From an uncultured Lachnospiraceae bacterium (GTDB taxonomy: Bacteria > Bacillota > Clostridia > Lachnospirales > Lachnospiraceae): a DNA stretch of 32,682 nucleotides. The stretch spans positions 1 to 32,682 of the forward strand of contig CAMWGV010000030.1 of NCBI GenBank assembly GCA_947173945.1. The letters run 5' to 3'. Below the pieces are notes generated by a model. The model had not been told where the DNA came from. It was given only the letters and a program-made list of their open reading frames with translations, and ran no database searches. Shown piece after piece: positions 2,732-28,389 of this stretch (position 1 is its first letter; each line of letters begins with the position of its first letter). A program made the translations under genes and the position numbers.

Positions 2732-5071
2732 CTACAATAACATGCCCACAGAATACACAACAAATGCCGCAAGCCATGCAATTATACACTGCATAAATAC
2801 GACAATAACCGCCCATTTTGCCCCAAGCTCACGCTTTACCGAAGCAATTGCCGCAATACAAGGAGTATACAACAGACAAAATACAAGCAGCGAAGCTGCA
2901 CTTACAGGTGTCAGAACAGTGGCAAGAAGCCCCTGTGACGGAATTAAAACCGATAATGTAGACACCACACTTTCCTTTGCCATAAAGCCGGTAATAAGTG
3001 CCGTTGATATTCTCCAATCGCCAAAACCAAGAGGTGCAAACAAAGGGGCAATAAAGCCTGCAACAACCGCAAGCAGGCTGCTTTGTGAATCTGAAACCAT
3101 ATTGAAATGTATATCAAAGGTCTGAAGGAACCAGATTATGATTGTTGCCATAAATATAACCGTAAATGCCCTATGTAAAAAATCCTTTGCTTTTTCCCAA
3201 AGAAGCCGCATAACATTTTTCACTCCCGGCATACGATAGTTTGGAAGCTCCATAACAAAAGGAACCGGTTCTCCCTTAAACATTGTTCTTCTTAAAATAA
3301 GAGCTGTAAGTATACCAACCAGAATACCGCCAAAATACAAAACAATCATTACAAGCCCGCTATACCCCGGAAAAAAGGCAGCAGCAAAAAAACCGTATAT
3401 CGGAAGCTTGGCTGAACAACTCATAAACGGTGTAAGTAAAATGGTCATTTTACGGTCACGGTCTGATGACAGTGTTCTGCTCGCCATAACTCCCGGCACC
3501 GTGCAGCCAAAGCCGATAAGCATTGGTACAATACTTCTTCCCGACAAACCGATTTTTCTAAGCAGCTTATCCATTACAAAGGCAACTCTTGCCATATAAC
3601 CGCTATCCTCAAGCATGGATAAAAAGAAAAACAATGTAACAATAATAGGCAGAAAGCTCAGTACACTTCCGACCCCGTTAAATATTCCATCTATAATCAA
3701 TGAATGAAGAACAGGATTTACACCTGCATGACGAAATGCCAAATCAACCTGTTCCGTCAATACGTCTATTCCCATGGCAAGCAAATTTTGCAGTCCCGCA
3801 CCTATAACGCTGAATGTAAGCCAAAAAATAACAGCCATAATGCAGACAAATGCAGGTATGGCGGTATATTTTCCTGTGAGAACCTTATCTATCGCCCTGC
3901 TTCTTGCATGCTCCTTGCTCTCCTTTGCACGGACAACCGTCTCATCGCTGATTGAGCGTATAAACCGGAATCTCATGTCCGCAATAGCAGCTGAACGGTC
4001 AAGCCCACGCTCCTTCTCCATCTGAATAATAATATGCTCAAGCATATCTTTCTCATTGTCATCAAGAATCAGCCTGTCTATAACTCTCTTGTCTCCCTCT
4101 GCCACCTTTGAAGCAGCAAACCTTAATGGAATTCCTGCGCTCTCTGCATGATCCTCAATCAGATGCATAATTGCATGTATACATCTGTGTACCGCACTGC
4201 CGTCATCATCAGAATTACAAAAATCTACTCTTTTCGGACACTCCTGATACTTTGCAACATGCATTGCATGCTCTATAAGCTCATCAATACCTTCATTTTT
4301 GGCAGCCGATATAGGAACGACCGGTATACCAAGCAGTTCCTCCATCTCATTAATATAGATAGACCCGCCATTTTCCCTTACCTCATCCATCATATTAAGG
4401 GCAAGCACCATTGGTATGTTAAGCTCCATAAGTTGCATCGTAAGATACAGATTTCTCTCTATATTTGATGCATCAACTATATTTATTATGCCTTTCGGCT
4501 TCTGGGTCAATATATATGACCTTGTAACCAACTCCTCATTGCTGTACGGAGACATTGAATATATTCCCGGCAAATCGGTTATTTCTGTATTATCGTACCC
4601 CTTTATTGTTCCTGACTTTTTATCAACCGTAACTCCCGGAAAATTTCCAACATGCTGATTAGAACCTGTAAGCCTGTTAAACAATGTTGTTTTTCCACAG
4701 TTTTGGTTTCCTGCAAGGGCAAATGTAATCAGCTCATTCTCCGGCAGCGGATTTTCATCTGCCTTCACATGATACTTTCCACCCTCACCAAGACCCGGAT
4801 GGGGAATACTGCCTGCCTTTCTTTTTGGCTGGTATTCATCCTTCAAATCAATTTCTTGTATTTCAATTTTTTTAGCATCATCAAGTCTTAATGTGAGCTC
4901 ATATCCATGAATTAAAAGCTCAATCGGATCTCCCATAGGCGCAAATTTAACAAGCGTAAGCTGTGCTTCGGGAATAAGCCCCATATCAAGAAAATGCTGT
5001 CTTAAGGCACCTTCTCCTCCTACAGAAATAACAGATGCTGATTTTCCTATGCCTAATTCGTCTAATGTCAT
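2732..5071 (-). CDS. feoB: Ferrous iron transporter, FeoA-FeoB fusion, 779 aa
   Basis: Imports Fe2+ across the cytoplasmic membrane. Residues 1-75 form an SH3-like FeoA domain (TLDELGIGKSASVISVGGEG...RQHFLDMGLIP). A linker of about 40 residues leads to the FeoB GTPase: G1 GNQNCGKTT at 121-129, the HVGNFPGVTVD switch at 140-150, G3 DLPG at 166-169 and G4 NMMD at 226-229. A guanine-dissociation-inhibitor helical region follows, then the membrane core with two Gate motifs (for example GFGCTVPGVMASR) and the C-terminal FeoB region. FeoA is normally a separate 75-80 aa protein, so this is a natural fusion. The gene lies 35 bases after the hybrid kinase and 23 before the MATE gene, with GTGAGG as ribosome site. 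No convincing Fur box is visible in the short gap. Confidence 0.95.
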   Translation of the reverse strand: MTLDELGIGKSASVISVGGEGALRQHFLDMGLIPEAQLTLVKFAPMGDPIELLIHGYELTLRLDDAKKIEIQEIDLKDEYQPKRKAGSIPHPGLGEGGKYHVKADENPLPENELITFALAGNQNCGKTTLFNRLTGSNQHVGNFPGVTVDKKSGTIKGYDNTEITDLPGIYSMSPYSNEELVTRSYILTQKPKGIINIVDASNIERNLYLTMQLMELNIPMVLALNMMDEVRENGGSIYINEMEELLGIPVVPISAAKNEGIDELIEHAMHVAKYQECPKRVDFCNSDDDGSAVHRCIHAIMHLIEDHAESAGIPLRFAASKVAEGDKRVIDRLILDDNEKDMLEHIIIQMEKERGLDRSAAIADMRFRFIRSISDETVVRAKESKEHARSRAIDKVLTGKYTAIPAFVCIMAVIFWLTFSVIGAGLQNLLAMGIDVLTEQVDLAFRHAGVNPVLHSLIIDGIFNGVGSVLSFLPIIVTLFFFLSMLEDSGYMARVAFVMDKLLRKIGLSGRSIVPMLIGFGCTVPGVMASRTLSSDRDRKMTILLTPFMSCSAKLPIYGFFAAAFFPGYSGLVMIVLYFGGILVGILTALILRRTMFKGEPVPFVMELPNYRMPGVKNVMRLLWEKAKDFLHRAFTVIFMATIIIWFLQTFDIHFNMVSDSQSSLLAVVAGFIAPLFAPLGFGDWRISTALITGFMAKESVVSTLSVLIPSQGLLATVLTPVSAASLLVFCLLYTPCIAAIASVKRELGAKWAVIVVFMQCIIAWLAAFVVYSVGMLL

Positions 5072-15201: not shown

Positions 15202-17331
15202 TCAGATGCTGCCATGTAATACAACAGGTAGCCTTGCCCCCATACGGCTAAGTAGTTCATTACTTATACTTCCCGCTTTTTTTGCTACATCAGCAGAACA
15301 TAGGGAATCGTTATTATTTGATATCAGCGTTGCCATATCTCCGACAGCTGCATCCTTTATAAATGTTATGTCAACTGCAAGCTGATCCATACAAACCCGT
15401 CCAACAATAGGTGCTGTCATTCCGTTTATCAGCACAGCTCCGGTATTGGACAAGCTTCTCGGAATACCGTCTCCATAACCCACAGGCAATATGGCAATTA
15501 TGCTGTCTTTTTCCGCAATATAGCTCCTTCCATAACCTACAGAATCCCCTTTTTTCACCTGTCTTATAAGTATAATTCTGCTCTTTAGTGATAAAACCGG
15601 TCTCAAATCAAGTGGCAGTTTTTGTGCATCCTCCGGCAGACTTTTTACACCATACAGTGCAACTCCTGCCCTTACATAGTCACATGCAAGCTCCGGATAA
15701 TTCAAAAGACCATAGCTGCTTTGAATATGTATTTTAGGCAAGCTTATACCTGCTTCCTTAAGAACATCAAGCAAATCGTAAAAACCCTTTATCTGCCCCT
15801 TCGTAAATTCTATATCATCCTCACGGTTACTGTCAGAACAGCAAAGGTGGGTAAAAATTCCGGTAACTGCTATATTTTTCATAGAAAAACATTTTTTCAC
15901 TTCCGAAACCGCTTCCCTATCAAATCCAAGTCTGTGCATGCCCGTATCTATTTTTATATGTGCTTTTACGCATATCCCCTGTTCATTTAATGCATCCGCA
16001 TAGTCAGGACTGATTAGCGTCTGGGTCAGATTATACCGCTTAATCTCATTTGCCCTGCTTACTGCTGTATATCCGAGTATCAGTATTTCTCCACGCACAC
16101 CATATTTTCTGAGCTTTATCCCTTCATCTATAGTTGCAACCGCATATGCCCGAACACCTATTTTATCAAGATGCGTTGAAATTTCATAACCCCCATGTCC
16201 GTAAGCTTCATCCTTAACGACTGCCATAAGCTCACATTCAGGTCCCATTGCATTTTTTAGCTCACATACGTTATGTTCTAAATGTTTAAGATTAATCTCT
16301 ATATACGTTCTGTCAGTGTAAGCCGAAATTTTGTCCTGTTTTTGTATTATTTTTTCCAAAAAAAATACTGCAATGATACTGAATGACACTGACCAAACAC
16401 AGACAACTGCAAAGTTGATAAGAAAATCATCTGAAAGAATTGCCCAACGATGCGAAATTCCCGAAAAAACACCTACCATTACTATCATCATAGGATGTAT
16501 GATATAAATTATCAGGGACGCATTTTTCAGCCACGCAATACATTTCCCCTTGAAATTCAAAATAAACAGAAACAGGAAATACATACATGGCAAAAGAAAT
16601 ATGTACATACTGTCATGACGCTGCACGTTAAGACTGCGAAGTGTAAGTGCCTCAAAAAGCATGAGTGAAAAACTTATAACAAAGCCCCAAAGATTTTTTA
16701 CCATTGACGACTTATTGCTGTTCTCTGCAATAAATCCTCCGAGCACAAAAAATATAGGTGCAAAGAAAATTCCGTTTCTCGTATAGTCACACACCTGAAA
16801 TATGTATGTATAAATACCCGAAAGACTGTCTGAAACTCCGTAATAGCTGTCACCAAAAAGCCCGATGAAATACAAAATTCCCGATATGGCAAAGGCTGCT
16901 TTGTAGTCAAAATGCCTTACTAAATATAATGCGATAGTGCCTCCCATTATTGCCGCCGGAAGATACCACAGATGATACATTGTACCATCAAATAAAATAT
17001 CTTTTATAAAATTGGGAACAAAATGATCCATTTTAAAATATCCGTTATAAATATTTATTGGCATGTATAATAGTATGGAAATCCCATATAGCACAGCTGT
17101 CCTTTTTATAAATTTTATAAGCCTTGCTCCATTGTAGTCGTACCTGCTAAGCATAAAAAAACCAGATGTCATAAAAAAAAATGGAACTGCAACCCGGGCA
17201 ACAACCCTTGTTAATATAAAATTTCCAGTATCATTTATTTTTCCGAGTGGTGATGTATGAATGGCTATAATAAGCAATGCAGCAATAAACCTGAAATAAT
17301 CAATACCTGTATAATATTCTCTTTTATTCAT
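15202..17331 (-). CDS. vanT: VanT-type membrane serine racemase, 709 aa
   Basis: Supplies D-serine for vancomycin-resistant D-Ala-D-Ser precursors. Residues 1-330 are a polytopic acyltransferase-3-like membrane domain (GIDYFRFIAALLIIAIHTSPLG at the start and about ten hydrophobic segments); in VanT this part is thought to aid L-Ser uptake. Residues 340-709 form an alanine-racemase fold: pyridoxal phosphate lysine K373 in AVVKDEAYGHG, an IKIDTGMHRLGF strand, a QSSYGLLNYP segment and catalytic Tyr600 in SVGYGRSY. Most alanine racemases have AVVKANAYGHG, so the DE pair is a change towards the VanT form as I remember it. The start overlaps the end of vanXY by eight bases. This two-domain layout is specific to VanT/VanTG, which makes the call firm; L-Ser versus L-Ala preference cannot be read from sequence alone. 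Confidence 0.93.
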   Translation of the reverse strand: MNKREYYTGIDYFRFIAALLIIAIHTSPLGKINDTGNFILTRVVARVAVPFFFMTSGFFMLSRYDYNGARLIKFIKRTAVLYGISILLYMPINIYNGYFKMDHFVPNFIKDILFDGTMYHLWYLPAAIMGGTIALYLVRHFDYKAAFAISGILYFIGLFGDSYYGVSDSLSGIYTYIFQVCDYTRNGIFFAPIFFVLGGFIAENSNKSSMVKNLWGFVISFSLMLFEALTLRSLNVQRHDSMYIFLLPCMYFLFLFILNFKGKCIAWLKNASLIIYIIHPMMIVMVGVFSGISHRWAILSDDFLINFAVVCVWSVSFSIIAVFFLEKIIQKQDKISAYTDRTYIEINLKHLEHNVCELKNAMGPECELMAVVKDEAYGHGGYEISTHLDKIGVRAYAVATIDEGIKLRKYGVRGEILILGYTAVSRANEIKRYNLTQTLISPDYADALNEQGICVKAHIKIDTGMHRLGFDREAVSEVKKCFSMKNIAVTGIFTHLCCSDSNREDDIEFTKGQIKGFYDLLDVLKEAGISLPKIHIQSSYGLLNYPELACDYVRAGVALYGVKSLPEDAQKLPLDLRPVLSLKSRIILIRQVKKGDSVGYGRSYIAEKDSIIAILPVGYGDGIPRSLSNTGAVLINGMTAPIVGRVCMDQLAVDITFIKDAAVGDMATLISNNNDSLCSADVAKKAGSISNELLSRMGARLPVVLHGSI

Positions 17332-18088
17332 TGCTCTTCCTCCACAGGGTTACAATAAAACCGTCAATATTATTGCCCGAAATCTGATAAACAGCTCCAT
17401 TTGGTATTTCAATAAGCGTCTCGTCTGTTCCTTTTGGAACATAATATACTTCAATCCTTGCACCTGAAGATGTCATATACGAAAATTTACAGGAGGATGT
17501 GTAATTTTTTATAAACTCAATATATTCCTCAAGGGAAAGTCCCAACTCGGTAATAATTTTTGAATGGGGATAGCCAACATACCGGAAATGCCACGGTTCA
17601 TGGGAAATACCTGTTATTTTTTCCTTCTCCCTGGTATAACGCTGAATAAACCCATACTGCGGAGCCACCTTTCTGAATTCATCACATATTCCCTTATATG
17701 GAAAATCCGGACATATAAAGTCGATATTCTCCTTGTTAAGTCCAAGGTCAATCGCCTGCCCTGTTTCATGCTCACTATGACTTGGCAGTGCAACATATTT
17801 TCTTGTAAACTCCTCCCCATTTTCTATCAGAGAATCGTTATATATGCCTGTCTGTTCTTCCTCGGAACGGTAACCACTTACAGGAACGATGGAAGCCTCC
17901 GCACCTATTTTTTCCAAAATAAACTGTAGAATATTGGCTGCATTTTTCTTAAGCCTAATATTAGGAAAGCGGGAATCAACAGGAATTTGCCCTTCTGTAT
18001 CCTTCTCTTTGTATGGGTAATCTGCATTCACTAGAAGTAATGTACCTTTATATATTTTTTCATTATCTATTTTTATAGTTTTCATCAT
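17324..18088 (-). CDS. vanXY: VanXY-type D,D-dipeptidase/D,D-carboxypeptidase, 254 aa
   Basis: Removes normal D-Ala-ending precursors by hydrolysing D-Ala-D-Ala and the terminal D-Ala of pentapeptide. It is a zinc M15B-type peptidase: SEHETGQAIDLG carries ligands His107 and Asp114, and HEPWHFRYVG carries the base Glu164 and ligand His167; Arg74 in SGYRS fits the substrate-binding arginine. No signal peptide or N-terminal anchor is seen, so it acts in the cytoplasm as VanXY enzymes do, unlike membrane VanY. The C-terminal 60 residues are a small extra domain. The gene begins at tandem ATG codons, with the first ATG sharing one base with the vanG stop. An alternative is a VanY-like carboxypeptidase only; gene order favours VanXY. 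Confidence 0.88.
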   Translation of the reverse strand: MMKTIKIDNEKIYKGTLLLVNADYPYKEKDTEGQIPVDSRFPNIRLKKNAANILQFILEKIGAEASIVPVSGYRSEEEQTGIYNDSLIENGEEFTRKYVALPSHSEHETGQAIDLGLNKENIDFICPDFPYKGICDEFRKVAPQYGFIQRYTREKEKITGISHEPWHFRYVGYPHSKIITELGLSLEEYIEFIKNYTSSCKFSYMTSSGARIEVYYVPKGTDETLIEIPNGAVYQISGNNIDGFIVTLWRKSNE

Positions 18089-19134
18089 TAAATGTACAGG
18101 CTTATCAGCTTGTCCAGCATATCGGAAAATGAAAGCCCTACTCCTTTCATCATATTCGGATAACGGCTATGGGACGTAAAGCCTGGGATTGTATTCACCT
18201 CATTAAAAACGATTTCTCCCGATTTGGTATAAAACATGTCTACCCTTGCAAAGCCCGAACACCCCAAAGCCTTGTATATGGCGGTTGCTGTATCCTGTAT
18301 CCGTTTTTCAGTATCTTGATCAATCCTTGCAGGCATATATATCCTTGATGTTTTCAATGTATACTTTTCCGTATAATCAAAGAAGCCGCCTGACAGCTCA
18401 ATTTCATCAACTCTTCCGCAGGTAAGCTCATCAATACCAAGAATTGCACATCCAACCTCAAATCCATCAATTGCTTCCTCCGCTATCACTTCACTGTCAT
18501 GACAAAACGCTGTCTCAATGGCAGTATCTAATTCCTCTGCAGAATTTACCTTAGTGATTCCGAATGATGATCCTGCACGTACCGGTTTTACGAAAACAGG
18601 ATATGTAAGTTCCTCCTCTATTCTTCTCTTTGCATCCGGAAGCTCATAGCTTTTAAATGTTACCGCTTTTGGCACTGATACCCCCATAAGCTCAACCAGC
18701 TTATGCGCTCTGTCCTTATCCATACATATAGCCGAAGCAAGTGTATTACAGCCCACAACAGGAATATCAGCCATCTCAAATAAGCCCTGAAGGGTTCCAT
18801 CCTCCCCATTCTTTCCATGCAATACTGGAAAAACCAAATCCACCTTAACTATATTAAAGCTTCCATCATAAATCTCCAAAAAGCCTTTCACAGACGGATT
18901 TGGAGAAACAACTATCGGACGCAGCATTTCACCGTCATCTGCCCATGTGTCATCTGCTATGCTTTCATATTTTCCCAAGTACCAATACCAGCTCCCATCC
19001 CTCGTAATTCCAACTGGAATAACCTGAAACTTATTCGTATCAATATTATTCAGCACGGAGTATACTGATTGTAATGACACCTCGTACTCTGTAGAGTTTC
19101 CTCCGAAAATAACCGCAATTTTTTTCTTTTGCAT
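18088..19134 (-). CDS. vanG: VanG-type D-alanine--D-serine ligase, 348 aa
   Basis: ATP-grasp ligase that joins D-Ala to D-Ser to make peptidoglycan ends with low vancomycin affinity. Motifs are IFGGNSTEYEVSL (9-21), PVLHGKNGEDGTLQG, the ATP-grasp PVFVKPVRAGSSFG (179-192), and the omega-loop DYTEKYTLKTSRIYMP (253-268). The EKYTLKTS form is typical of VanG-like D-Ser ligases; D-Ala ligases and VanA-type ligases differ there. Metal-binding residues lie in VDMFYTKSGEIVFNEVNTIPGFT (split only in part here). I chose ATG 19134 with AAAGG upstream; in-frame TTG and GTG codons at 19140 and 19143 are alternatives. Its own promoter region lies at 19192-19253 after a terminator that isolates it from vanS. 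Confidence 0.92.
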   Translation of the reverse strand: MQKKKIAVIFGGNSTEYEVSLQSVYSVLNNIDTNKFQVIPVGITRDGSWYWYLGKYESIADDTWADDGEMLRPIVVSPNPSVKGFLEIYDGSFNIVKVDLVFPVLHGKNGEDGTLQGLFEMADIPVVGCNTLASAICMDKDRAHKLVELMGVSVPKAVTFKSYELPDAKRRIEEELTYPVFVKPVRAGSSFGITKVNSAEELDTAIETAFCHDSEVIAEEAIDGFEVGCAILGIDELTCGRVDEIELSGGFFDYTEKYTLKTSRIYMPARIDQDTEKRIQDTATAIYKALGCSGFARVDMFYTKSGEIVFNEVNTIPGFTSHSRYPNMMKGVGLSFSDMLDKLISLYI

Positions 19135-19191
19135 TTTCAACACACCTTTCTTTCACTTTCATACTCAGGCAAACGTTCTTTCTGATTTCTG

Positions 19192-19253
19192 TTATCAATA
19201 TAACAACAGGAAATTTCGAATACCACTTACAGCTTTTGTAAGGTTTGTCTTAC
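19192..19253 (-). promoter_or_regulatory. Probable VanR-responsive promoter of vanG-vanXY-vanT
   Basis: The gap holds three evenly spaced five-base elements on the plus strand: CTTAC at 19226-19230, its complement GTAAG at 19238-19242, and CTTAC at 19249-19253. The outer two are 23 bases apart, about two helical turns, as expected for tandem OmpR-family regulator sites. On the minus strand a TATATT -10-like box lies at 19202-19197 with no good -35, which fits an activated promoter. Binding by VanR is inference from position and spacing. Confidence 0.5.
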
Positions 19254-19269
19254 CATTTTCCTGCATCAA

Positions 19270-19319
19270 CAAAAAAAACACTCCTGTTATGTACTAAATT
19301 GTACCAATAACAGGAGTGT
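19270..19319 (-). terminator. Intrinsic terminator between vanS and vanG
   Basis: A 13-bp perfect stem (ACACTCCTGTTAT at 19278-19290 with ATAACAGGAGTGT at 19307-19319) encloses an inner GTAC/GTAC stem. On the minus strand it is followed by eight T residues from the A-run at 19271-19278. It should end vanR-vanS transcripts before the resistance genes, so these need their own promoter. Confidence 0.88.
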
Positions 19320-19369
19320 CATTTATTTGTTTCCCCACAAAGTATTCAGTTTTTTTCCTACGGAATTTC

Positions 19370-20527
19370 TTACGATTTTCCTACGGTCAAAGGAAGTGTC
19401 ACCATAAATTCAGTAATCTCATCTTCACTTTTTGCACTTATTGTACCACCGTGAAGCTCAACAATTTGTTTTGCAATGGCAAGTCCCAGCCCTGCACCTC
19501 CGCTTCTTGTGCCTCTTGAGGAATCCAGTCTGTAAAACTGCTCAAATATTCTTTCTAATTTTTCCTCTGGAATTGTATCTCCTCTGTTCAGGAATTTTAA
19601 TATCAGCATATCCTCCTGACAGCTTGCATGAATGCATATTTCAGTATCATTATAACTGTAAATAACTGCATTTCTGAGCAAATTATCAAAGACACGCTGA
19701 ATTTTGTCGGCATCACACTGCATCATAACATCATTTTCAATCTCAAGCCTGCACAAATTATTTTTCTCATCAAGCATAGGCTTAAATTCAAATATAAGCT
19801 GCTCTAACAGACGCGTTAAGTTTATCCTGCTGTACTGCAACGTTATGTTTGATAAATTGAACCTTGATATTTCAAAAAACTCATTAATAAGCTCCTCAAG
19901 ACGTTCTGCCTTTTCAAGAGAAACAGACAAATATTTTTGCCTTACCTCCTCAGAAATCTGTCCCTCATCCTTGAGCAGGTTCAGATATCCTATGACAGAA
20001 GCAAGCGGTGTTTTTAAATCATGTGCAAGATACATAATCAAATCATTTTTCCGTTGCTCCGTCTCAATAATATCATTTTTTTGTTTCTCGATCGTATTCT
20101 TGACTGTATTAAGTTTCCTCTCCATAGGAAATAATTCCGCAGACATTGATATTTCTTCGGCATTTCCATTTGCAAGGCTGTCAATTCCCTTGTGAATTTC
20201 ATTAAAGTATTTTGTAAATCTGATAACACAGCTAAATAATGACAGAAAAAATACGACGGCAATCGTGAACAAAATTATAAGGTTTTCATTTCGCCGAATA
20301 GCATAATCATAACTGTCAAGTGCAGACTCATAATCCATTCCAAATATCCTTTGAATTATTCCCACTACCCATTCTGAAAAATGGCCTTTAACCACAAATA
20401 CATATAGGAAATAAAGACCAAATACAGCCACGAACGTAATCACTATGGTACGCAAAATAAACATAGTTTTAAATTGTTTGAAATCAACATTTTTTCTTTT
20501 TGATTTATTTTTCAATTGTATACCCAA
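19370..20527 (-). CDS. vanS: VanS-type sensor histidine kinase, 385 aa
   Basis: Membrane sensor that phosphorylates VanR. Two transmembrane segments (about 25-47 and 83-103) bracket a short extracellular loop of about 35 residues (HFSEWVVGIIQRIFGMDYES), too small for a classical sensor fold and typical of VanS. A HAMP-like linker follows. HisKA has the sequence YLAHDLKTPLASVIGYL with phospho-His 169, and HATPase_c shows N-box DNLLRNAVIYS and GGAGLGLAIAKQIVELHGG. The ORF start overlaps the end of vanR by 23 bases, so the two are translationally coupled. The inducer is presumably a glycopeptide or a wall precursor; this is not visible in the sequence. Confidence 0.9.
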   Translation of the reverse strand: MGIQLKNKSKRKNVDFKQFKTMFILRTIVITFVAVFGLYFLYVFVVKGHFSEWVVGIIQRIFGMDYESALDSYDYAIRRNENLIILFTIAVVFFLSLFSCVIRFTKYFNEIHKGIDSLANGNAEEISMSAELFPMERKLNTVKNTIEKQKNDIIETEQRKNDLIMYLAHDLKTPLASVIGYLNLLKDEGQISEEVRQKYLSVSLEKAERLEELINEFFEISRFNLSNITLQYSRINLTRLLEQLIFEFKPMLDEKNNLCRLEIENDVMMQCDADKIQRVFDNLLRNAVIYSYNDTEICIHASCQEDMLILKFLNRGDTIPEEKLERIFEQFYRLDSSRGTRSGGAGLGLAIAKQIVELHGGTISAKSEDEITEFMVTLPLTVGKS

Positions 20528-21206
20528 CTCCCCATACCGTTTTTATAAATTTCGGTTTTTTTGCCGGCTCATTCATCTTCTCTCTCAGCCTTCCGATATG
20601 AGCCATAACAGTATTATTGTTGTTTAAATATTTTTCACCCCACACAGCCTCAAACAGCTCCTCGGAGGGAACAACAACTCCCTGATGCTCACATAAATAC
20701 CAAAGTATTGAAAACTCAATCGGGGTAAGCTGCAGTTCTTTGCCAAACAGCTCACATTTGTGCTTATCCTTATTAATTATAAGTCCTCTTATATCATATT
20801 CGTGAACCTCAGCATCATTTTTTGCATTTGTGTTGTTATAACGCATATACCTTCGGAGCTGTGTCTTAACTCTGGCAACAACTTCAAGGGGATTAAAGGG
20901 CTTTGTTATGTAATCGTCCGCACCGATTGTGAGCCCCATTATCTTATCACCGTCTTCAACCTTTGCTGTCAGCATTATAATCGGATAATAAAATCTCTCC
21001 CTGATTTTCTGGCAAATATGAAAGCCATCAACATCAGGAAGCATAACATCTAATATGGCTAAATCCAACTCCGTTTCCGCTATACATTTTAATGCATCCG
21101 TTCCATTATAGAATTTGTGCACGATATAACCATCATTTACGAGATATACCTCAATTAAATCGGCTATTTCCTTCTCATCATCTACAACTAAAATGTGTTC
21201 TCCCAT
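20505..21206 (-). CDS. vanR: VanR-type OmpR-family response regulator, 233 aa
   Basis: N-terminal receiver with acidic pocket VVDDEKEIADLI, phospho-Asp53 in LAILDVMLPDVDG and conserved lysine in YITKPFNPLEVVARV. The C-terminal winged helix (about 130-233) holds LTPIEFSILWYLCEH, VWGEKYLNNNNTVMAHIGRLREK and the wing FIKTVWGVGYTIEK. The NNNNTVMAHI helix is a usual VanR feature where other OmpR members have a different recognition helix. The gene is 81 bases after the DUF362 gene's stop and has a GAGG-containing site before ATG. It is expected to activate vanG-vanXY-vanT and perhaps itself. Confidence 0.9.
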   Translation of the reverse strand: MGEHILVVDDEKEIADLIEVYLVNDGYIVHKFYNGTDALKCIAETELDLAILDVMLPDVDGFHICQKIRERFYYPIIMLTAKVEDGDKIMGLTIGADDYITKPFNPLEVVARVKTQLRRYMRYNNTNAKNDAEVHEYDIRGLIINKDKHKCELFGKELQLTPIEFSILWYLCEHQGVVVPSEELFEAVWGEKYLNNNNTVMAHIGRLREKMNEPAKKPKFIKTVWGVGYTIEK

Positions 21207-21287: not shown

Positions 21288-22172
21288 TTAAATAATTGGG
21301 ATTAAATCGTATTCTGTAGTACCATATCCCAGCTTTGCTGCCGCATCAATCGTATGAGTACCATGAAGTGACTCCACTCTCTGTATAAAATGGTCACGTC
21401 CCGGATCATCTGACTTATAGATTAAATCCATACATGCCCTATCAAGTGCAACAGGGTCAAGAGATGACAAAATTCCGATATCCTTCATGCATGGGTCCTC
21501 TGCTACAGCACAGCAGTCACAGTCTACAGAAAGATTGCACATCATGTTTACAAATGCAATATTTCCCTTGAAATACTCCATAATACTGCCTGCCGCATCT
21601 GCCATTGATTCACAAAATACATCCTGCTCTGCCATATGGTCCCAGACAATTGTCTGATCATTTGTATATCCACCCGAATGGATCAGTGACTTTCCATCAC
21701 TGGACGCACAGCCTATGGAAAGCTGTTTTATCGCTCCGCCGTATCCGCCTGCCGGATGTCCCTTAAAATGTGATAAAACAAGCATGGAATCATAATTAGA
21801 AATATTTTTGCCAACATAATTTTCTTTCAGTACTGTTCCATTTGAAATCGGGAGAACTATGTCAGGGCCCTCGGCATCCAGCAAATCAACATCAAAATAT
21901 TTATTCCAGCCATGTTCCTCAATCAGCTTCCTATGCTTATCTGTAGAATTTCTGGCACCATCATATGCTGTATTACACTCCACAATGGTTCCATTTACCG
22001 CCTCTACCATAGGACGCATAAACTCAGGTCTTAAATAATTCTGATTTCCTTTCTCGCCCGAATGTACCTTAACTGCCACTTTCCCCTTAAGCTCTATTCC
22101 GAGCACGTTATACATCTTAACAACCGCCTCTGGTGTAATTGTTTCCGTAAAATAAACCTTTGCTTTTTCCAT
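21288..22172 (-). CDS. DUF362 domain protein, 294 aa
   Basis: The protein matches the DUF362 family: KVAVKVHSGEKGNQNYLRPEF near the N-terminus, SHFKGHPAGGYGGAIKQLSIGCASS in the middle, and the cysteine-rich closing motif DCDCCAVAEDPCMKDIGIL (residues 217-235) followed by SLDPVALDRACMDL. Cys 212, 218, 220, 221 and 228 could bind an Fe-S cluster or other metal. Many family members carry an additional ferredoxin domain; this one does not. No biochemical function is established for this form. It ends 81 bases before vanR and is preceded by a large inverted-repeat element. Its translation leader is nearly identical to that of the GyrI-like gene at 22533-23165. Confidence 0.82.
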   Translation of the reverse strand: MEKAKVYFTETITPEAVVKMYNVLGIELKGKVAVKVHSGEKGNQNYLRPEFMRPMVEAVNGTIVECNTAYDGARNSTDKHRKLIEEHGWNKYFDVDLLDAEGPDIVLPISNGTVLKENYVGKNISNYDSMLVLSHFKGHPAGGYGGAIKQLSIGCASSDGKSLIHSGGYTNDQTIVWDHMAEQDVFCESMADAAGSIMEYFKGNIAFVNMMCNLSVDCDCCAVAEDPCMKDIGILSSLDPVALDRACMDLIYKSDDPGRDHFIQRVESLHGTHTIDAAAKLGYGTTEYDLIPII

Positions 22173-22532: not shown

Positions 22533-23165
22533 TCAATATTTTTTTATCGGATGACGAATTACCGTCCGAAGCTTATCCTCCGCTGCCCTTCTCGGATCAC
22601 TGAGGTATATCTCATGATGCCGCCTTATATCTGAAAAATCCACAACATAGCCTTGTTCACTGACAAAGTCATTCATCATCTGAATCGTCTTTGGTTCAGC
22701 ATCATAGCTTCCAATATGCATACATTGCACACATAATCCCTCAGAATAATTAAAATACTTCACCTTTGAGAAATCCATCTGCTTTTTTTCTGTTGCCTCA
22801 CAAAGTGCCCAATCAAATTCTTCCTTTGTTACAAACTCAGGAAGCCGAATCATGGAAGTCCATTCAAAGTTTTCCTTATGGGTATAGTCAATCACATGAC
22901 CTCCGCTTTGTTTCCACAAGCCTTCAAGGGGTGGCACAACATACGGAAAATAGCCCTCAATTTTGTGTTTTCCCTTATAACTCATTTTAATTGTAAATGC
23001 AATTGCATACAGTAATCCTATGGCCGCCTTGTATTCTCCATCAGGCTCATTTGGGTCTCCCGTTCCATCAACCGCAATATAGTTAATGTTCGGCACATCA
23101 ACTATTACTGGTCTTTTGGGTGGTAAATAAAATTCCTTGTATTCTTTTTTATAATCAAAAGCCAT
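22533..23165 (-). CDS. GyrI-like small-molecule-binding domain protein, 210 aa
   Basis: The sequence fits the GyrI-like/SHS2 family: an N-terminal DYKKEYKEFYLPPKRPVIVDVP strand pair, NYIAVDGTGDPNEPDGEYKAAIGLLYAI, a central KIEGYFPYVVPPLEGLW region and a C-terminal CVQCMHIGSYDAEPKTIQMM with HHEIYLSDPRR near the end. Such proteins bind hydrophobic or drug-like ligands; some have been proposed to hydrolyse cyclopropane or epoxide toxins. No HTH is attached, so it is not a regulator by itself. The ATG follows AAAGGGG within a leader shared with the DUF362 gene. It lies 48 bases after the ACS-like gene and may share its transcript, since no terminator is seen between them. Confidence 0.82.
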   Translation of the reverse strand: MAFDYKKEYKEFYLPPKRPVIVDVPNINYIAVDGTGDPNEPDGEYKAAIGLLYAIAFTIKMSYKGKHKIEGYFPYVVPPLEGLWKQSGGHVIDYTHKENFEWTSMIRLPEFVTKEEFDWALCEATEKKQMDFSKVKYFNYSEGLCVQCMHIGSYDAEPKTIQMMNDFVSEQGYVVDFSDIRRHHEIYLSDPRRAAEDKLRTVIRHPIKKY

Positions 23166-23213: not shown

Positions 23214-23909
23214 TTAACTTTTAGCTTTTTTCATATGCAATTCTTTCATACCCTCAACCTCGTCGCAAATCTCTTTCAGATTGCAGGTCGAGCAATCAAA
23301 CAGAATATTATCAAGGATATGATTAAGCGCCGAGGTGGTGCTTTTTATTTTATCTGCTAGCATCAACAATTCATCAAATTTATCAAACTGTGTAATAAAA
23401 ATAATCTGTACGCTTTTTACAATTGGATTTTTAAGATACTCGTTAATCAGCGAACGGCCCAAATCTGCAAAGCTTATCTTCTTTTTTACTGCTTTTTTGC
23501 TTACACGTAGCTGTTCACGCATACTGAGTGCTGAAGCACGCGTCATAAAGCCGTCAGGGCAATAATTATATCTGACAAGCTCAAGCTCCTTTATTTTATC
23601 AAAGGCTGTATCCTCGTCAATATCCTCAATCTCCAGAAAAACAATTTTGCCATAGGCAGTGTCCTCTTTTATTTCAGGAATATCCTTGCCGTAAAGATAA
23701 GTCGAATTATCAAAACTAATTGTACTTGTCACAGCCATTGTGCTGATACACGGCTTCTGACTGCCGCCAAGCTCATATGCAGTATCCTTCAGTAGCAATA
23801 TCGAGTTTTTATCTCCCTGCTTGAGTACAGATTTTTTATATTTAAAACTATTACTGCATGCTGGCAGAAGATCTCTTATCTGATTAATAAGCTGATTATA
23901 CAGTATCAT
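23214..23909 (-). CDS. Acetyl-CoA synthase (CdhC/AcsB)-like short protein, 231 aa
   Basis: Residues about 125-200 resemble the part of acetyl-CoA synthase just before the A-cluster: MREQLRVSKKAVKKKISFAD, LINEYLKNPIVKSVQIIFIT and a helix with ELLMLADKIKS. In full-length ACS this region leads into a CxxC cluster-binding loop. Here the protein ends soon after a Cys206-x2-Cys209-x5-Cys215 motif followed by DEVEGMKELH, and it lacks the Ni-binding CGC and the rest of the A-cluster domain. It could hold an Fe-S cluster but should not make acetyl-CoA. The family link rests on remembered patterns, not a search. The start overlaps the stop of the 52-aa gene (TAATG). It is the last tightly coupled gene of the CooC/2-HAD cassette, so a structural or electron-transfer role there is likely. 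Confidence 0.65.
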   Translation of the reverse strand: MILYNQLINQIRDLLPACSNSFKYKKSVLKQGDKNSILLLKDTAYELGGSQKPCISTMAVTSTISFDNSTYLYGKDIPEIKEDTAYGKIVFLEIEDIDEDTAFDKIKELELVRYNYCPDGFMTRASALSMREQLRVSKKAVKKKISFADLGRSLINEYLKNPIVKSVQIIFITQFDKFDELLMLADKIKSTTSALNHILDNILFDCSTCNLKEICDEVEGMKELHMKKAKS

Positions 23910-24067
23910 TACAACTTTCTGTCCTTTTCCAGATTATCATAGTGCTTACCAAGCAAATCATAAACCTTACGCACTAATTTCATATCAAGGTTAAAATAAT
24001 AAATACCGAAAGTCAAAACAAAAAGTACTGCAATAATAACTAAAATAATAATTAAAACCTTTAACAT
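23909..24067 (-). CDS. Small single-span membrane protein, 52 aa
   Basis: An ATG directly adjoining the activase stop opens a 52-codon frame whose TAA shares a base with the ATG of the next gene. Residues 2-25 are strongly hydrophobic (VLIIILVIIAVLFVLTFGIYY) and are followed by a positively charged tail with KLVRKVYDLLGKHYDNLEKD, so an N-out/C-in anchor is expected. There are no cysteines. The gene is unlikely to arise by chance because it exactly fills a 157-base gap between two coupled genes in the right frame. It may tether the cassette's proteins to the membrane. I recognise no named family. Confidence 0.8.
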   Translation of the reverse strand: MLKVLIIILVIIAVLFVLTFGIYYFNLDMKLVRKVYDLLGKHYDNLEKDRKL

Positions 24068-24859
24068 TTATGCCATTCCTTTCTGTCTTGCATATTCAGC
24101 CGCACCGAGCGCACCCATAAGCTGAGGGTCTGTATCAAGATCTACAACTTTAATTTTAAGCACATGCTCAATAGCCTTTTTAAGTCCTGCATTTTTTGCA
24201 CATCCGCCTGTAAGCGTAATACTGTCAGTTGCTCCTGCTTTTTTAGCCATAACAAAACAGCGCTTGGCAACAGAAAGTTGAATACCTGCTGCAATTTCGT
24301 CCATAGGCTTACCCTCACCTACAAGTGAAATAACCTCTGACTCGGCAAAAACAGTACACTGCGCTGTAATAGGAATTGTATTCTTTGCCTTTAATGAAAG
24401 CTGACAAAATTCAGGAAGTGTCATTTCAAACGCATTTGCCATTGCCTCAAAAAATTTACCTGTACCTGCTGCACACTTATCATTCATTGCAAAGTTTTTA
24501 ACAGTACCGTCTGTATCAATAGCAATACCCTTAACATCCTGTCCACCGATATCAATAATCGCCTTAACACTTGGGTTCGTTACATGCACACCCATTGCAT
24601 GACAACTGATTTCGGAAATATTTTCATCGGCAAACGACACTTTATTTCTGCCGTAACCTGTACCGATTAAATAGCTGAGCTCCTCAGCTGACTTGATATC
24701 TTTCAGCTTGCCGATTGCTTCTTCAAGCGCAAGCTCAGCACTTTTTACCGGATTAATCTTGCTTCTTACTGTTGCATCAGCAGCAATCTTTCCATTTTCG
24801 TTAAGTATTACACATTTTGTGTAGGTTGAGCCTACGTCACATCCGCCAAAATATTTCAT
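24068..24859 (-). CDS. 2-hydroxyacyl-CoA dehydratase-type activase (BadF/BadG/HgdC), 263 aa
   Basis: ATP-driven homodimeric [4Fe-4S] protein that injects a low-potential electron into its partner. It has the ASKHA ATPase fold: GGCDVGSTYTKCVIL (5-19), LIGTGYGR, IIDIGGQDVKGI (101-112), MNDKCAAGTGKFFE (125-138), TLTGGCAKNAGL and MGALGAAEYAR. The two cysteines that hold the bridging cluster in HgdC-type activases are present as Cys129 and Cys168 (in AQCTVFAESEV). Its length equals that of single-domain activases, without the long multi-domain extension of some family members. It lies 12 bases after the larger 2-HAD-like subunit and directly adjoins the 52-aa gene. Confidence 0.93.
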   Translation of the reverse strand: MKYFGGCDVGSTYTKCVILNENGKIAADATVRSKINPVKSAELALEEAIGKLKDIKSAEELSYLIGTGYGRNKVSFADENISEISCHAMGVHVTNPSVKAIIDIGGQDVKGIAIDTDGTVKNFAMNDKCAAGTGKFFEAMANAFEMTLPEFCQLSLKAKNTIPITAQCTVFAESEVISLVGEGKPMDEIAAGIQLSVAKRCFVMAKKAGATDSITLTGGCAKNAGLKKAIEHVLKIKVVDLDTDPQLMGALGAAEYARQKGMA

Positions 24860-24871
24860 ATGTATCTCTCC

Positions 24872-26413
24872 TTACCATGCCATTGTGTCATCAAAATCAA
24901 CCAGTGTTGGGTCTACAGGTTCCTCCTGCAAAACAGTTGTCATATACTTATTAATCTGCTCACGCATATCACGTCTTGAAACAGTTCTCGGATCCATAAG
25001 GTCCTGGTCAACCCAGATGAAATTAATATTTCGCTCTCTTGCCTGGTCATCAAAAATACCATTGAGACCGTCCATACCCTTACAGGATATCTGGTTATAC
25101 ATAATTACAGTATCTACATTGAATTCTTCGCAAACTCTCCACAGCTCATCAACAACATTCTGATAACCGCCCTTGGTATGCTTTCTCATAGTTGTTCTTT
25201 GCAGCGTTTTTGCATAGGTTGCAAGTGACTTATCCTTATTCTCGGTATCATACATTATGTAGGAAATCATTGTTTCCATATCCATAACTACATTTATACC
25301 CCAGCAATTCTCAAGCCAGTTTGCAAGACTTGTGTAATAATTGGCTGGGCAGGACCAAACAATTGCCCTGTGGCGCATTTCTTTGGAAACCTTTTCTTTT
25401 TTCTTAAAGCCCTTCATCATAAGCTTGTTTACCTTTTTATCGGTTTTAAGGAAACGCTTGTCAAATCCGCCTGAAAGGTGGAAATAGAATAATCTGTAAA
25501 GCCAGAATGTTGCACCTGTCATCTGCGGATAATCAGTCTTATTGACATCCCACTTTTGCAACTCGTATTCAAGCTGTTTGTTATAATTTTTCATTGCACT
25601 GAAATATGCATCCCAGTCAAATTTTTCGCCTGTCTGCTCTTCAATAAATCTGATACAGGATTTAACCTCGTCAACAGCATATTCCTGTACCTCCTCTTCC
25701 GTATATCGCAGCGGCACATTAACAACGTGTGACGGAAGATTAAAGCGTCTGTCTATATATGAAGAATTCATTGTCGAACCGTCGCACGGCATATTGCAAG
25801 ATAAAAAGCATTTGCCGAACATTGGATAATCATCATTGATTGCAACACCTGCCTCTGCAGATGGCAAAGGGCAGACATCAGCAGGAACACCATAGCTTTC
25901 TGTCAAATCAAGATAAGGCGGTGTGATGTGCTGATCCACCATTGATGAAAGGAAAATCGGAATTGTCTGAACAGGCACACCGTAAAGATTCGGAAAGCCT
26001 GCCATCAGCTCAAATGAGAAAAGCTCGTCCATACAAACAGTCTTATCCGAAAACTTATCATTCGGATGAAAATGCTTGTCATGCTTAAAGAGCATATGAA
26101 TCATATCGGTAGTATGCTTAATGATAGCATCAAAATGCAAATGAGCGATACGAAGATGTGTACCACGCAGTCCTTCAACATGGCGGTCAACCCACGCAGG
26201 AGCCGAAAGGTAGCTTGCCATCCAACGATAATTCCACAAGCCCTTGATTGTTGATACAGGTGCCTTAAGCACCATTTTAATCATATCCTTCCAGGTGATA
26301 AGCCAGCGGTAATAATCGTACATCGTGTCCTTAAATCCACGCAATTCTCTGTGCTTAAGTATACCTGTTTTAGGCTCATGCAGATTACCTAGATTCTTAG
26401 GCTGATTTGCCAT
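24872..26413 (-). CDS. 2-hydroxyacyl-CoA dehydratase/double-cubane family protein, large subunit, 513 aa
   Basis: Member of the HgdB/BcrC/FldBC superfamily that receives high-energy electrons from the activase. The C-terminal half has the family fold with RHRAIVWSCPANYY, VMDMETMISY and FNVDTVIMYNQISCKGMDGL. Candidate cluster ligands are Cys181, one or more of Cys202/206/210 (KCFLSCNMPCDGSTMNSS) and Cys444. At 513 residues it is longer than the usual 380-430 because of about 110 extra N-terminal residues rich in aromatic and basic residues. I chose ATG 26413 with AAAGGAGG upstream, one base after the previous stop; a longer frame reaches 26467 without a site. No CoA-transferase or acyl-CoA dehydrogenase accompanies it, so the substrate need not be an acyl-CoA. 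Confidence 0.88.
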   Translation of the reverse strand: MANQPKNLGNLHEPKTGILKHRELRGFKDTMYDYYRWLITWKDMIKMVLKAPVSTIKGLWNYRWMASYLSAPAWVDRHVEGLRGTHLRIAHLHFDAIIKHTTDMIHMLFKHDKHFHPNDKFSDKTVCMDELFSFELMAGFPNLYGVPVQTIPIFLSSMVDQHITPPYLDLTESYGVPADVCPLPSAEAGVAINDDYPMFGKCFLSCNMPCDGSTMNSSYIDRRFNLPSHVVNVPLRYTEEEVQEYAVDEVKSCIRFIEEQTGEKFDWDAYFSAMKNYNKQLEYELQKWDVNKTDYPQMTGATFWLYRLFYFHLSGGFDKRFLKTDKKVNKLMMKGFKKKEKVSKEMRHRAIVWSCPANYYTSLANWLENCWGINVVMDMETMISYIMYDTENKDKSLATYAKTLQRTTMRKHTKGGYQNVVDELWRVCEEFNVDTVIMYNQISCKGMDGLNGIFDDQARERNINFIWVDQDLMDPRTVSRRDMREQINKYMTTVLQEEPVDPTLVDFDDTMAW

Positions 26414-26414
26414 A

Positions 26415-27611
26415 TTACTCCGCCTCCTTTGCCTTTTTAATTTTTTTAATTTCAAGGCTTTCAACAAAAGCTTGTACTCTTGTTCTCAGCTGTCCTGATG
26501 CACTTGCAGTATACTGCCTGTCAACCGTAATAGACGGAATACCATACTCATTCGTCATAATATGTGATGCAAGCGCTCGTTCATATCCCCAGAATTCACA
26601 GAATTTAATCTGCTCATAAATAACACCATCCGCGTGATAGTCGTTGACAAGCTGTCTTACATATTCTTTTCTGCCGTCAACTTTTTCCTTACTCATGTAA
26701 CGTGGACACTGGCAGGTTTTCATATAATGAAGCACAATTTGCTCAAGCACATCACCGTTATCGGTAAGATTGATTTCCTCCCTGCCCGGCAGTGAGCCAT
26801 AACAATATCTGTCTGCAACAACAAGCGCACCTGACTCCTCAATAAGCTTTGTAAAATCAGGGTCATCCATCTCGGAGCCAACTACTACAACCTTTGCCCG
26901 GTAGCTTTTCTTTTCATCAGGAACTCGAGTTTTCAACTCCTCGGCAGTTTCGCGAAGCTTGTCGAGAATTAAATATTTAGGACAACAGTATGTAACAAGA
27001 TTAATTACATGGAATTCATAGCCTGTAATTCTTGGATTTTCTTCTTTTCTATATGCTCCGATTTCGGTAATCAGACGGCAAATCTCGTTATGCTCCTCAA
27101 CTGCTTTGCGCAAAGATGCCTCACTGATATCAACACCATAAACCTCATTAAGCTTATCAAGCACCTTAATCTGCATTTGATTTTTATAATGCTTAATCGT
27201 ATGCGGCTCTATTTTAAACGGAATATCCGAAACAGATAAAAAGAACTTGTCATTCTCAACCAGATTCAACAATGTAAAATGCTCGTAGCACCTGTTCATC
27301 TCTGAGCAGGATTCAGAACCGATAAGAGCAGAAAGGAAATTATAACCACCTTCAATTGCACGTTCAAGAATAGCCTTTGAATATCCACACAGATACGAAC
27401 TAAGATAATATGTAGCAATATCCATTGAGCCTGTTCGCGGTGCTCTTAAACGAACTGAAAAGCAGTTGTCAAGATTAAGCAGAACCTCAGGTATATGATA
27501 ACAGGTATACGCAAGAGCCTTTTTACCCTCTGATGTTGCTTGTCTTACAAGCTCATTATTTGCCTCTTGAAGCAAATTTTCAAAATAAATTAAATGCTTT
27601 AAATCTTTCAT
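26415..27611 (-). CDS. 2-hydroxyacyl-CoA dehydratase/double-cubane family protein, small subunit, 398 aa
   Basis: This is an HgdB-like subunit of ordinary length. The conserved cysteine positions of the family are seen: Cys37 in AYTCYHIPEVLL (compare the family's G-x-x-C-x-x-x-PEE), Cys75 in SSYLCGYSK, Cys102 in GSESCSEMNR and Cys338 in IKFCEFWGYE (compare LKFCDPWG). The SVRLRAP segment after Cys50 and YNFLSALI before Cys102 also fit. It would bind one [4Fe-4S] or part of a double-cubane cluster and pair with the 513-aa subunit. Its start overlaps the stop of the CooC-like gene by one base. Whether it is a radical dehydratase, a benzoyl-CoA-reductase-like enzyme or a double-cubane reductase of small molecules cannot be decided here. 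Confidence 0.88.
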   Translation of the reverse strand: MKDLKHLIYFENLLQEANNELVRQATSEGKKALAYTCYHIPEVLLNLDNCFSVRLRAPRTGSMDIATYYLSSYLCGYSKAILERAIEGGYNFLSALIGSESCSEMNRCYEHFTLLNLVENDKFFLSVSDIPFKIEPHTIKHYKNQMQIKVLDKLNEVYGVDISEASLRKAVEEHNEICRLITEIGAYRKEENPRITGYEFHVINLVTYCCPKYLILDKLRETAEELKTRVPDEKKSYRAKVVVVGSEMDDPDFTKLIEESGALVVADRYCYGSLPGREEINLTDNGDVLEQIVLHYMKTCQCPRYMSKEKVDGRKEYVRQLVNDYHADGVIYEQIKFCEFWGYERALASHIMTNEYGIPSITVDRQYTASASGQLRTRVQAFVESLEIKKIKKAKEAE

Positions 27612-28372
27612 TACAGTACCTCTATTCTGCGAAGAGCCTCTTTGACACCCTTAACTACATTAGACTCAGCAGGCAGATTAAATACATTTTCACCCTGTAT
27701 ATCAAACATTGACAAATTTTTGTCATCAGCAATATAACTTAAAACCTCAATACCATTTGTATTTATATAGTCCTTAAGTGACTTATCAGCCATACGATTG
27801 ACAATTGCACCGATTTTATCGTACATAACAAGCTCATCCGCAACACTTTTAATGGTATTTATAACCTGACAGCCTTTTTTGCTCGGGTCTGTAATAAGCA
27901 AAAGATGTGTTACCTTTTCCATTACTCTGCGATTAATCTGCTCAATACCTGCTTCGCCGTCAATTACAACATAATCAAACTCGTTTGACAATATCGAAAT
28001 AACTTCTTTAAGATATGAGTTAATTTTGCAGTAACAGCCCGCTGTTTCAGGTCTGCCGACAGCTATAAATGAATAGCCGTCTGTTTCTACAAGAGCATCG
28101 AATATACGGTACTTAGCCTCGCCTAAAAGTTCTATAGCACCTCTTGTATCGCCCTCGTCAACAGATGCAATAATTTCTTTTCTTATGTCATCTATTGTCA
28201 TTTTTACGTCTATGCCAAGTGCTGTTGAAAGTCCCACTGCAGGGTCAGCATCAATAGCAAGTATTTTTTTGTTTGGATATTTTTCTACCAAACAACGCAC
28301 AATTGTTGCAGAAAGAGAGGTCTTGCCGACTCCGCCCTTACCTGCAACAGCAATAATTGTTGCTTTATTCAT
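27611..28372 (-). CDS. CooC-like metal-maturation ATPase, 253 aa
   Basis: A SIMIBI-class P-loop ATPase with deviant Walker A GKGGVGKTS (11-19), switch I/IDADPAVGLSTALG and Walker B YVVIDGEAGIEQ. The CooC hallmark is present: GRPETAGCYCKIN with Cys113 and Cys115, the CxC pair that binds Ni or Zn at the dimer interface of CooC/AcsF. Known relatives insert Ni into CO dehydrogenase or acetyl-CoA synthase, neither of which lies in the window in full form. ATG 28372 is favoured because GGTGA lies five bases before it; ATG 28378 is also in frame. It is the first gene of the cassette, preceded by a probable promoter. The metal and client enzyme are open questions. Confidence 0.9.
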   Translation of the reverse strand: MNKATIIAVAGKGGVGKTSLSATIVRCLVEKYPNKKILAIDADPAVGLSTALGIDVKMTIDDIRKEIIASVDEGDTRGAIELLGEAKYRIFDALVETDGYSFIAVGRPETAGCYCKINSYLKEVISILSNEFDYVVIDGEAGIEQINRRVMEKVTHLLLITDPSKKGCQVINTIKSVADELVMYDKIGAIVNRMADKSLKDYINTNGIEVLSYIADDKNLSMFDIQGENVFNLPAESNVVKGVKEALRRIEVL

Positions 28373-28389
28373 ATTCATCACCAATTTAT

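Follow-up and report, generated by a model that had tools for sequence, protein, structure and literature searches.

A conserved six-gene cassette of anaerobic bacteria links a predicted ATP-driven double-cubane reductase to CooC and a fragment of acetyl-CoA synthase

Introduction

What is the role of a gene cassette that sets two subunits of a dehydratase-type family and their activase beside a CooC-type ATPase and a piece of acetyl-CoA synthase (ACS)? The question is raised by six genes on a 32,682-nucleotide stretch of DNA from an uncultured Lachnospiraceae bacterium (contig CAMWGV010000030.1 of assembly GCA_947173945.1), which is referred to here, over its whole length, as the window. These genes encode CooC, two different proteins of the HGD-D family (subunit A, HADA, and subunit B, HADB), an ATP-dependent activase, a small protein with a single membrane span, and an ACS-like protein (ACSL). 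An original prediction, made from the letters of the window and its reading frames, described them as an uncharacterized ATP-driven low-potential reductase with its own metal-loading factor, perhaps located at the membrane. Comparison with other genomes shows that the six genes are tightly conserved as a system in anaerobic bacteria, among them those of the gut and the rumen. By its cysteines, the HADA-HADB pair looks like an ATP-driven, very-low-potential iron-sulfur (Fe-S) reductase and not the dehydratase that the family name implies, and CooC and ACSL look like a shared helper for a family of such reductases.

Results

The six genes are kept together across genomes

As read from the open reading frames (ORFs) of the window, the six genes follow one another in the same direction on the minus strand, spanning 28384 to 23214 (23214-28372/28384). 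With the ATG at 26413 taken as the start of HADB, the intergenic gaps are -1, +1, +12, 0, and -1 bases in order, which confirms the tight packing described originally. This ATG is preceded by AAAGGAGG, and the 531-amino-acid (aa) ORF of HADB, counted from the TTG at 26467, probably has 18 residues too many at its start. The start of CooC is likely the ATG at 28378 or 28372 instead of the TTG at 28384.

The order CooC, HADA, HADB, activase, single-span protein, ACSL was kept at 25 of the 27 survey loci (28 in total) that had at least 6 kb of upstream sequence. When 84,980 species genomes were scanned, 479 of 492 candidate stretches were confirmed as holding relatives of ACSL; the best 80 of the 479 were retained and, together with the window, make up 81 named loci. 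Of these, 54 had 6 kb or more upstream, and 47 of the 54 showed the same order (54 of 61 under a looser rule), so that the expectation that the genes would stay together in other genomes was borne out. Named carriers include Blautia parvula, Butyrivibrio, Faecalicatena orotica, an Emergencia sp., Clostridium algidicarnis, and a metagenome-assembled genome of Vallitalea.

Of the 392 genomes of the order that were searched, 29 contain ACSL, and these belong to 10 of 172 genera. It was found in two of the 61 close relatives drawn, both belonging to the genus of the window, and its distribution is therefore patchy; genomes with and without it coexist within genera g1, g26, g29, g33, and g59. In the same 392 genomes, a profile of HADB identified 29 strong genomes (at least 654 bits, with the next match at 58 bits) and a profile of the cassette CooC also identified 29 (at least 342 bits, next 194 bits). 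The genome sets for ACSL, HADB, and the cassette CooC were identical. The naive probability of two such 29-genome sets agreeing is about 10^-44 with relatedness ignored, a formal value that is too small because the genomes are related.

HADA has cysteines at the double-cubane ligand positions

Both subunits match the HGD-D family (9.6e-96 and 3e-45). The original label of a 2-hydroxyacyl-CoA dehydratase (2-HAD) pair is thus correct as to family, although the family name does not imply that the proteins are dehydratases. In the class I benzoyl-CoA reductase dimer BzdNO, the available part of PMC11971306 gives Cys36/73/100/263/293/327 of BzdN as ligands of an [8Fe-9S] cluster and Cys95/128/380 of BzdO as ligands of an open-site [4Fe-4S] cluster. 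HADA (398 aa, 26415..27611, minus strand) is a BzdN/DCCP-like protein, and in alignment it has a cysteine at all six BzdN positions (Cys 37, 75, 102, 270, 302, and 338) in 16 of 16 sequences. HADB (24872..26413, minus strand) is BzdO-like and is 513 aa long from the ATG at 26413. Its Cys 199, 228, and 462, in the count of the 531-aa ORF, were present in 13 of 13 sequences and, by sequence alone, align with the three BzdO ligands.

The number of these cysteines varies among reference proteins. Among 21 beta-type reference rows, all six were present in 14, four in 3, three in 3, and none in 1 (L265). The HadC-like row and the two rows closest to it have three of the six double-cubane cysteines, and the DCCP-type rows have six in 10 of 10 cases. 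The three [4Fe-4S] cysteines of HADB were also present in all 21 alpha-type reference rows, dehydratase-like ones included, and therefore only HADA discriminates reductase from dehydratase. HADB contains in addition an invariant Cys388 (same count) that occurs in none of the alpha-type rows, as well as a long N-terminal extension for which a sequence search gave no PDB relative. The nearest solved structures are BzdN for HADA (6.6e-36) and DCCP for HADB (8.4e-13).

In a quick maximum-likelihood tree of 81 rows, which took the last 400 residues of HADB and 10 of the 31 DCCP-type loci (L142, L202-L231), HADA and HADB each formed one group on a long stem (SH-aLRT 100, no bootstrap). Both groups fell outside the BzdN/BzdO-like and DCCP rows and also, as the original prediction required, outside the dehydratases, which are represented in this tree by HadBC-like rows only, with a HadC label (L250) of 253 of 700 bits and with characterized HgdAB and FldBC left out. 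Ten references were scored with NCBIfam; L251 was over the BzdN cut-off and L202 over the DCCP cut-off, and the nine other DCCP rows were labelled by kinship to L202. HADA scored 150 of 350 bits for double_cubane and 95 of 453.8 for BzdN, and HADB scored 53 of 350 bits for double_cubane and 21 of 448.6 for BzdO. Neither subunit reached the model cut-off for BzdN, BzdO, DCCP, HadC, BcrB, or BcrC. A plain dehydratase was rejected on the basis of the HADA cysteines, tree placement, and co-occurrence; the six cysteines and the tree support the proposed distinct reductase as far as sequence comparison can.

The activase (archerase, HgdC/BadFG type; 263 aa, 24068..24859, minus strand) matches BcrAD_BadFG (8.4e-56) and TIGR00241 (3.3e-64, over the cut-off). 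It has both bridging-cluster cysteines, which align with MbdQ and are presumably cluster ligands. The alignments thus contain the activase cysteines and the family cysteines of both subunits that had first been read from the ORFs, and likewise the CxC motif of CooC described below.

Two observations concern relatives of the pair. The HADA and HADB groups adjoin an uncharacterized HGD-D pair (L262:3-2472, genome G518), which is the nearest outgroup of both and lies on a contig that ends before any neighbours. Besides BzdN and L262, twelve beta-type HGD-D proteins have all six cysteines (L246, L247, L248, L249, L252, L253, L254, L259, L260, L261, L263, and L264). Six of these (L246, L247, L249, L252, L254, and L260) were scored by NCBIfam and reached no cut-off. 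Judged by these residues, the twelve are probably further uncharacterized double-cubane enzymes.

CooC and a fragment of acetyl-CoA synthase

CooC (27611..28384, minus strand) is a CooC/AcsF-type P-loop ATPase of the MinD/CooC type, with CooC 3kje as its top PDB match (4.8e-20). The deviant P-loop GKGGVGKTS and the CxC motif (C117 and C119, numbered from the TTG at 28384) were present in 13 of 13 sequences.

ACSL (231 aa, 23214..23909, minus strand) has a CdhC domain match of 1.5e-7, over the cut-off. It is composed of ACS domain 2, whose fold is present, and a short tail of three cysteines and one histidine, C206-x2-C209-x5-C215-x9-H225, whose four residues do not vary in any of the 51 rows aligned (50 named loci plus the window). 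There is no N-terminal domain and no A-cluster domain; the protein stops about 25 residues past the first tail cysteine, while the reference ACS (L267) continues for about 220 residues. The description as ACS-like therefore holds for domain 2, but what follows it is a Cys/His tail, and the nickel-binding domain is missing. Relative to Cys 506, 509, 518, and 528 of ACS, which we take to be the cubane ligands, the first and last spacings of the tail are equal and the middle one differs, with the tail lying outside the hhalign alignment.

ACS over the cut-off was found in 0 of 30 cassette genomes, that of the window included, and carbon monoxide dehydrogenase (CODH) over the cut-off in 5 of 30. 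The genome of the window was not among the five, in agreement with the absence of CODH stated in the original prediction. On these counts, the idea that the cassette consists of accessory genes of a CODH/ACS was rejected.

HypA and a 960-aa flavoprotein were found near 10 of 110 loci, a set that includes 5 places reached twice, and one or the other of them near 7 of 39 further HADA loci. A small protein whose N-terminus is rich in His and whose C-terminal part is conserved was also found near the cassette at 10 loci (L087, L092, L103, L106, and other Butyrivibrio-like loci). Pfam gave no name to the one at L092 and a sub-cut-off name to the one at L106, and NCBIfam gave none for L092 and L109. 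Because CooC carries the CxC motif, ACSL has ACS ancestry, and HypA lies near some loci, nickel is the likely metal of the system. The cassette does include CooC as a candidate metal-loading factor, which together with ACSL looks like a shared maturation factor, but nickel loading by CooC is not established.

One CooC and one ACSL accompany many reductase pairs

The 29 survey genomes contain at least 52 strong HADB copies, a lower bound with at most 3 candidates scored per genome, compared to 29 ACSL and 29 cassette CooC. Among nine further genomes (G431-G439), one ACSL was present in 9 of 9 and one cassette CooC in 8 of 9. Seven of these (G431-G437) have 8-20 HGD-D matches each, mostly HADA-HADB pairs dispersed over contigs; the gene calls of GC-rich genomes include spurious ORFs. 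In the genome of the window (2.84 Mb assembly, 108 contigs), the HGD-D matches at E <= 0.001 are the two cassette genes only. CooC and ACSL were alone in the fetched stretch at 6 of the 110 loci, but the genomes of these loci do contain reductase-family genes, G431-G439 being genomes of this kind. Since a single CooC and ACSL accompany many reductase pairs, we read them as a shared maturation pair, and HADA-HADB is probably an expandable, substrate-specific unit. Eleven neighbour candidates of stand-alone pairs, partly picked by eye, were scanned; seven are regulators of the TetR, LysR, GntR, or AraC type and four are without a family. Such varied regulators fit inducible, substrate-specific enzymes.

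The 52-aa single-span protein (23909..24067, minus strand) reaches a mean hydropathy of 3.4 over 19 residues and has a charged C-terminal tail and a conserved FNLDMK region. It recurs behind many HADA-HADB pairs, being found beside 5 of 14 stand-alone pairs and 24 times in a set of loci with 40 HADA and 40 HADB matches. The suggested membrane location thus has a single-span gene within the cassette in its favour but is not established.

At 19 of 25 survey loci, and at 20 of the 47 named loci whose flank was long enough, the fetched flank carries on the strand of the cassette a flavoprotein of one of three families (687, 760, and 960 aa). The 687-aa and 760-aa proteins are Old Yellow Enzyme-like, with BaiCD and bilirubin reductase as nearest models, below cut-offs. 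These neighbours are a hint of C=C reduction as a theme in some lineages.

Comparison with known systems

With six double-cubane cysteines in subunit A, the pair resembles BzdNO and DCCP. BzdNO likewise has two HGD-D subunits, six plus three cluster cysteines, and ATP-driven activation, as given in the accessible text of PMC11971306. Unlike BzdNO, the cassette pair is below the BzdN and BzdO cut-offs and apart in the tree, its HADB has the N-terminal extension and Cys388, and the cassette has one activase gene along with CooC, ACS-like, and single-span partners. DCCP (6eno, 7yyl) shares the six-cysteine double-cubane pattern and a cognate activase, but it is described as a homodimer in the available portion of PMC11971306, whereas the cassette encodes two different subunits. 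HadBC/HadI, HgdAB/HgdC, and FldBC/FldI are alike in protein family and activase; in contrast, the HadC-like subunit has 3 of the 6 cysteines and the cassette proteins are apart from HadBC-like rows, with HgdAB and FldBC outside the comparison. ACSL differs from ACS (AcsB/CdhC), which is served by a CooC/AcsF ATPase, in having no N-terminal domain, A-cluster domain, or CGC nickel site and in a tail of 3 Cys and 1 His compared to 4 Cys.

The isr operon offers a further parallel. The accessible part of PMC10134865 discusses a pairing with HypA for IsrA, a putative isoprene reductase encoded there with HypA/HypB, and the 960-aa FAD/Fe-S oxidoreductase near the 10 cassette loci is like IsrA by size and domains only. 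Unlike the cassette, the five isr genes named there include no HGD-D subunits, activase, or ACS-like protein.

Other genes in the window

A DUF362 protein and a GyrI-like protein are encoded directly downstream of the cassette (21288-22172 and 22533-23165, minus strand). They were rejected as members of the system, as the window and a 98%-identical relative (L033/L062, one place reached twice) are the only places where they were seen to adjoin the cassette. Five genes at 15202-21206 (minus strand) resemble, as read from their ORFs, a cluster of the VanG type made up of a response regulator, a sensor kinase, a D-Ala ligase, a carboxypeptidase, and a serine racemase/acyltransferase, and the ORF at 2732-5071 (minus strand) reads as a FeoA-FeoB-like fusion.

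Discussion

Our preferred explanation, to which we give an even chance of being right as a whole, is an ATP-driven double-cubane reductase with CooC and ACSL as its shared maturation pair. In such a system, the activase would use ATP hydrolysis to drive electrons one at a time into a double-cubane [8Fe-9S] cluster held by subunit A. Ferredoxin is the electron source of this activase family and would be the donor here. The electrons would pass to an open-site [4Fe-4S] cluster ([4Fe-4S]-OH2) in subunit B, which would reduce a small, probably poorly reactive substrate at a C=C, aromatic, or heteroatom bond. The single-span protein may serve as a membrane tether for many pairs. CooC, with ATP, would load a metal, most likely nickel, onto the Cys3His tail of ACSL, and ACSL may hand it on to all HADAB paralogues. 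A bolder form of this proposal, which we regard as possible and hold tentatively, is a nickel-dependent branch of the BzdNO/DCCP type. Here electrons from the [8Fe-9S] cluster would reach a nickel-containing or nickel-matured site in subunit B, supplied through CooC and an ACS remnant turned metal carrier, and the branch would have multiplied in gut and rumen clostridia under varied regulators as inducible low-potential electron sinks.

Several observations weigh against this explanation. The gene order is broken at two survey loci, L055, where the HAD genes are elsewhere in the genome, and L061, where other genes intervene, as well as at seven named loci (L085, L098, L100, L110, L113, L115, and L139). 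One ACSL-bearing genome (G439; 1.8 Mb, completeness unstated) shows no CooC. HypA was not found in the genome of the window nor in 4 of 29 other cassette genomes (5 of 30 in all), and in the former, which has no ACS and no CODH over the cut-off, CooC is the sole evidence for nickel. Because hhalign stops before the cysteine tail of ACSL, spacing is the only argument that this tail is homologous to the A-cluster ligands; the ACSL model is also at its least confident there (pLDDT blocks of 47-72). No single-span gene was found next to 9 of the 14 stand-alone pairs, nor did any substrate genes recur beside the 14. Same-strand flavoproteins of the three families were not found near the cassette of the window or 26 other named loci, and these proteins are therefore not obligatory neighbours.

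The main rival, which we consider unlikely, makes ACSL a working part of the enzyme, whether for electron transfer or for binding of CoA or substrate, with a Cys3His site that feeds or is fed by HADAB and is matured by CooC in the way that AcsF/CooC matures ACS. CooC-type ATPases act on ACS and CODH, and domain 2 joins in the CoA and ferredoxin contacts of ACS. In the cassette, ACSL is alone among the parts in having ACS ancestry, and CooC adjoins it even when the other genes are elsewhere. However, one ACSL for up to 20 HGD-D matches per genome would be odd for a stoichiometric subunit, and the A-cluster domain with its nickel-binding CGC is absent. It is improbable, to a greater degree, that CooC handles Fe-S or another metal in place of nickel and that ACSL is an Fe-S carrier aiding double-cubane assembly. 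Fe-S-carrying Mrp-type ATPases are related to CooC, Cys3His is a possible [4Fe-4S] site, and the lack of HypA, of ACS, and of CODH over the cut-off in the genome of the window fits this idea. On the other hand, the nearest solved ATPase is the CODH/ACS accessory CooC, and BzdNO made from a bzdNO plasmid in E. coli showed the [8Fe-9S] cluster, according to the accessible text of PMC11971306. Double-cubane assembly therefore needs no CooC/ACSL pair as such.

Two further explanations change the role of HADAB itself. It and its activase could form a reductive activase or maturase for another metalloenzyme, such as the neighbouring flavoproteins or the metal site of ACSL, much as the ATP-driven electrons of CfbCD and of the MCR activation complex build or activate a nickel cofactor. 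The frequency of same-strand flavoproteins and the 960-aa member with HypA at 10 loci are in its favour, but their absence on that strand at the loci named above speaks against it. Moreover, HADAB is the expanding component and has several different regulators nearby, which substrate enzymes fit better, and we consider this role quite improbable. The least probable explanation is that the pair is an ordinary 2-HAD or class I benzoyl-CoA reductase with CoA esters as substrates and that CooC and ACSL merely happen to be encoded beside it. The protein families are the same and the activase is a standard one, but the subunits reach none of the cut-offs for characterized relatives given above and form separate groups on long stems. 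HADA also has six cysteines compared to three in the HadC-like row, ACSL and CooC co-occur exactly with HADB in the 29 genomes, and the scan of eight proteins showed neither a CoA-transferase nor an acyl-CoA dehydrogenase (beyond these eight, the window was read as ORFs only).

A published description of the six-gene set was not found in the literature searched, in which coverage of subscription journals is limited, so this is not proof of novelty. The reductase family is already known. What is apparently new is the constant association of this reductase with CooC and a partner of ACS descent, together with its expansion in gut genomes that keep the helper genes single. A review of gut metalloenzymes that surveyed about 5000 gut genomes places this protein family under 2-hydroxyacyl-CoA dehydratases in its accessible text (PMC11574389). 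The branch described here is present in many gut and rumen genomes, bears reductase-type double-cubane ligands by alignment, and in the 392 genomes compared always occurs with CooC and an ACS fragment. If our reading is correct, it would add to the ATP-driven reductases a new group whose substrates may be recalcitrant compounds from the diet or the host. It would also provide a defined test of the natural role of double-cubane clusters, and a case in which a domain of acetyl-CoA synthase has been reused outside carbon fixation.

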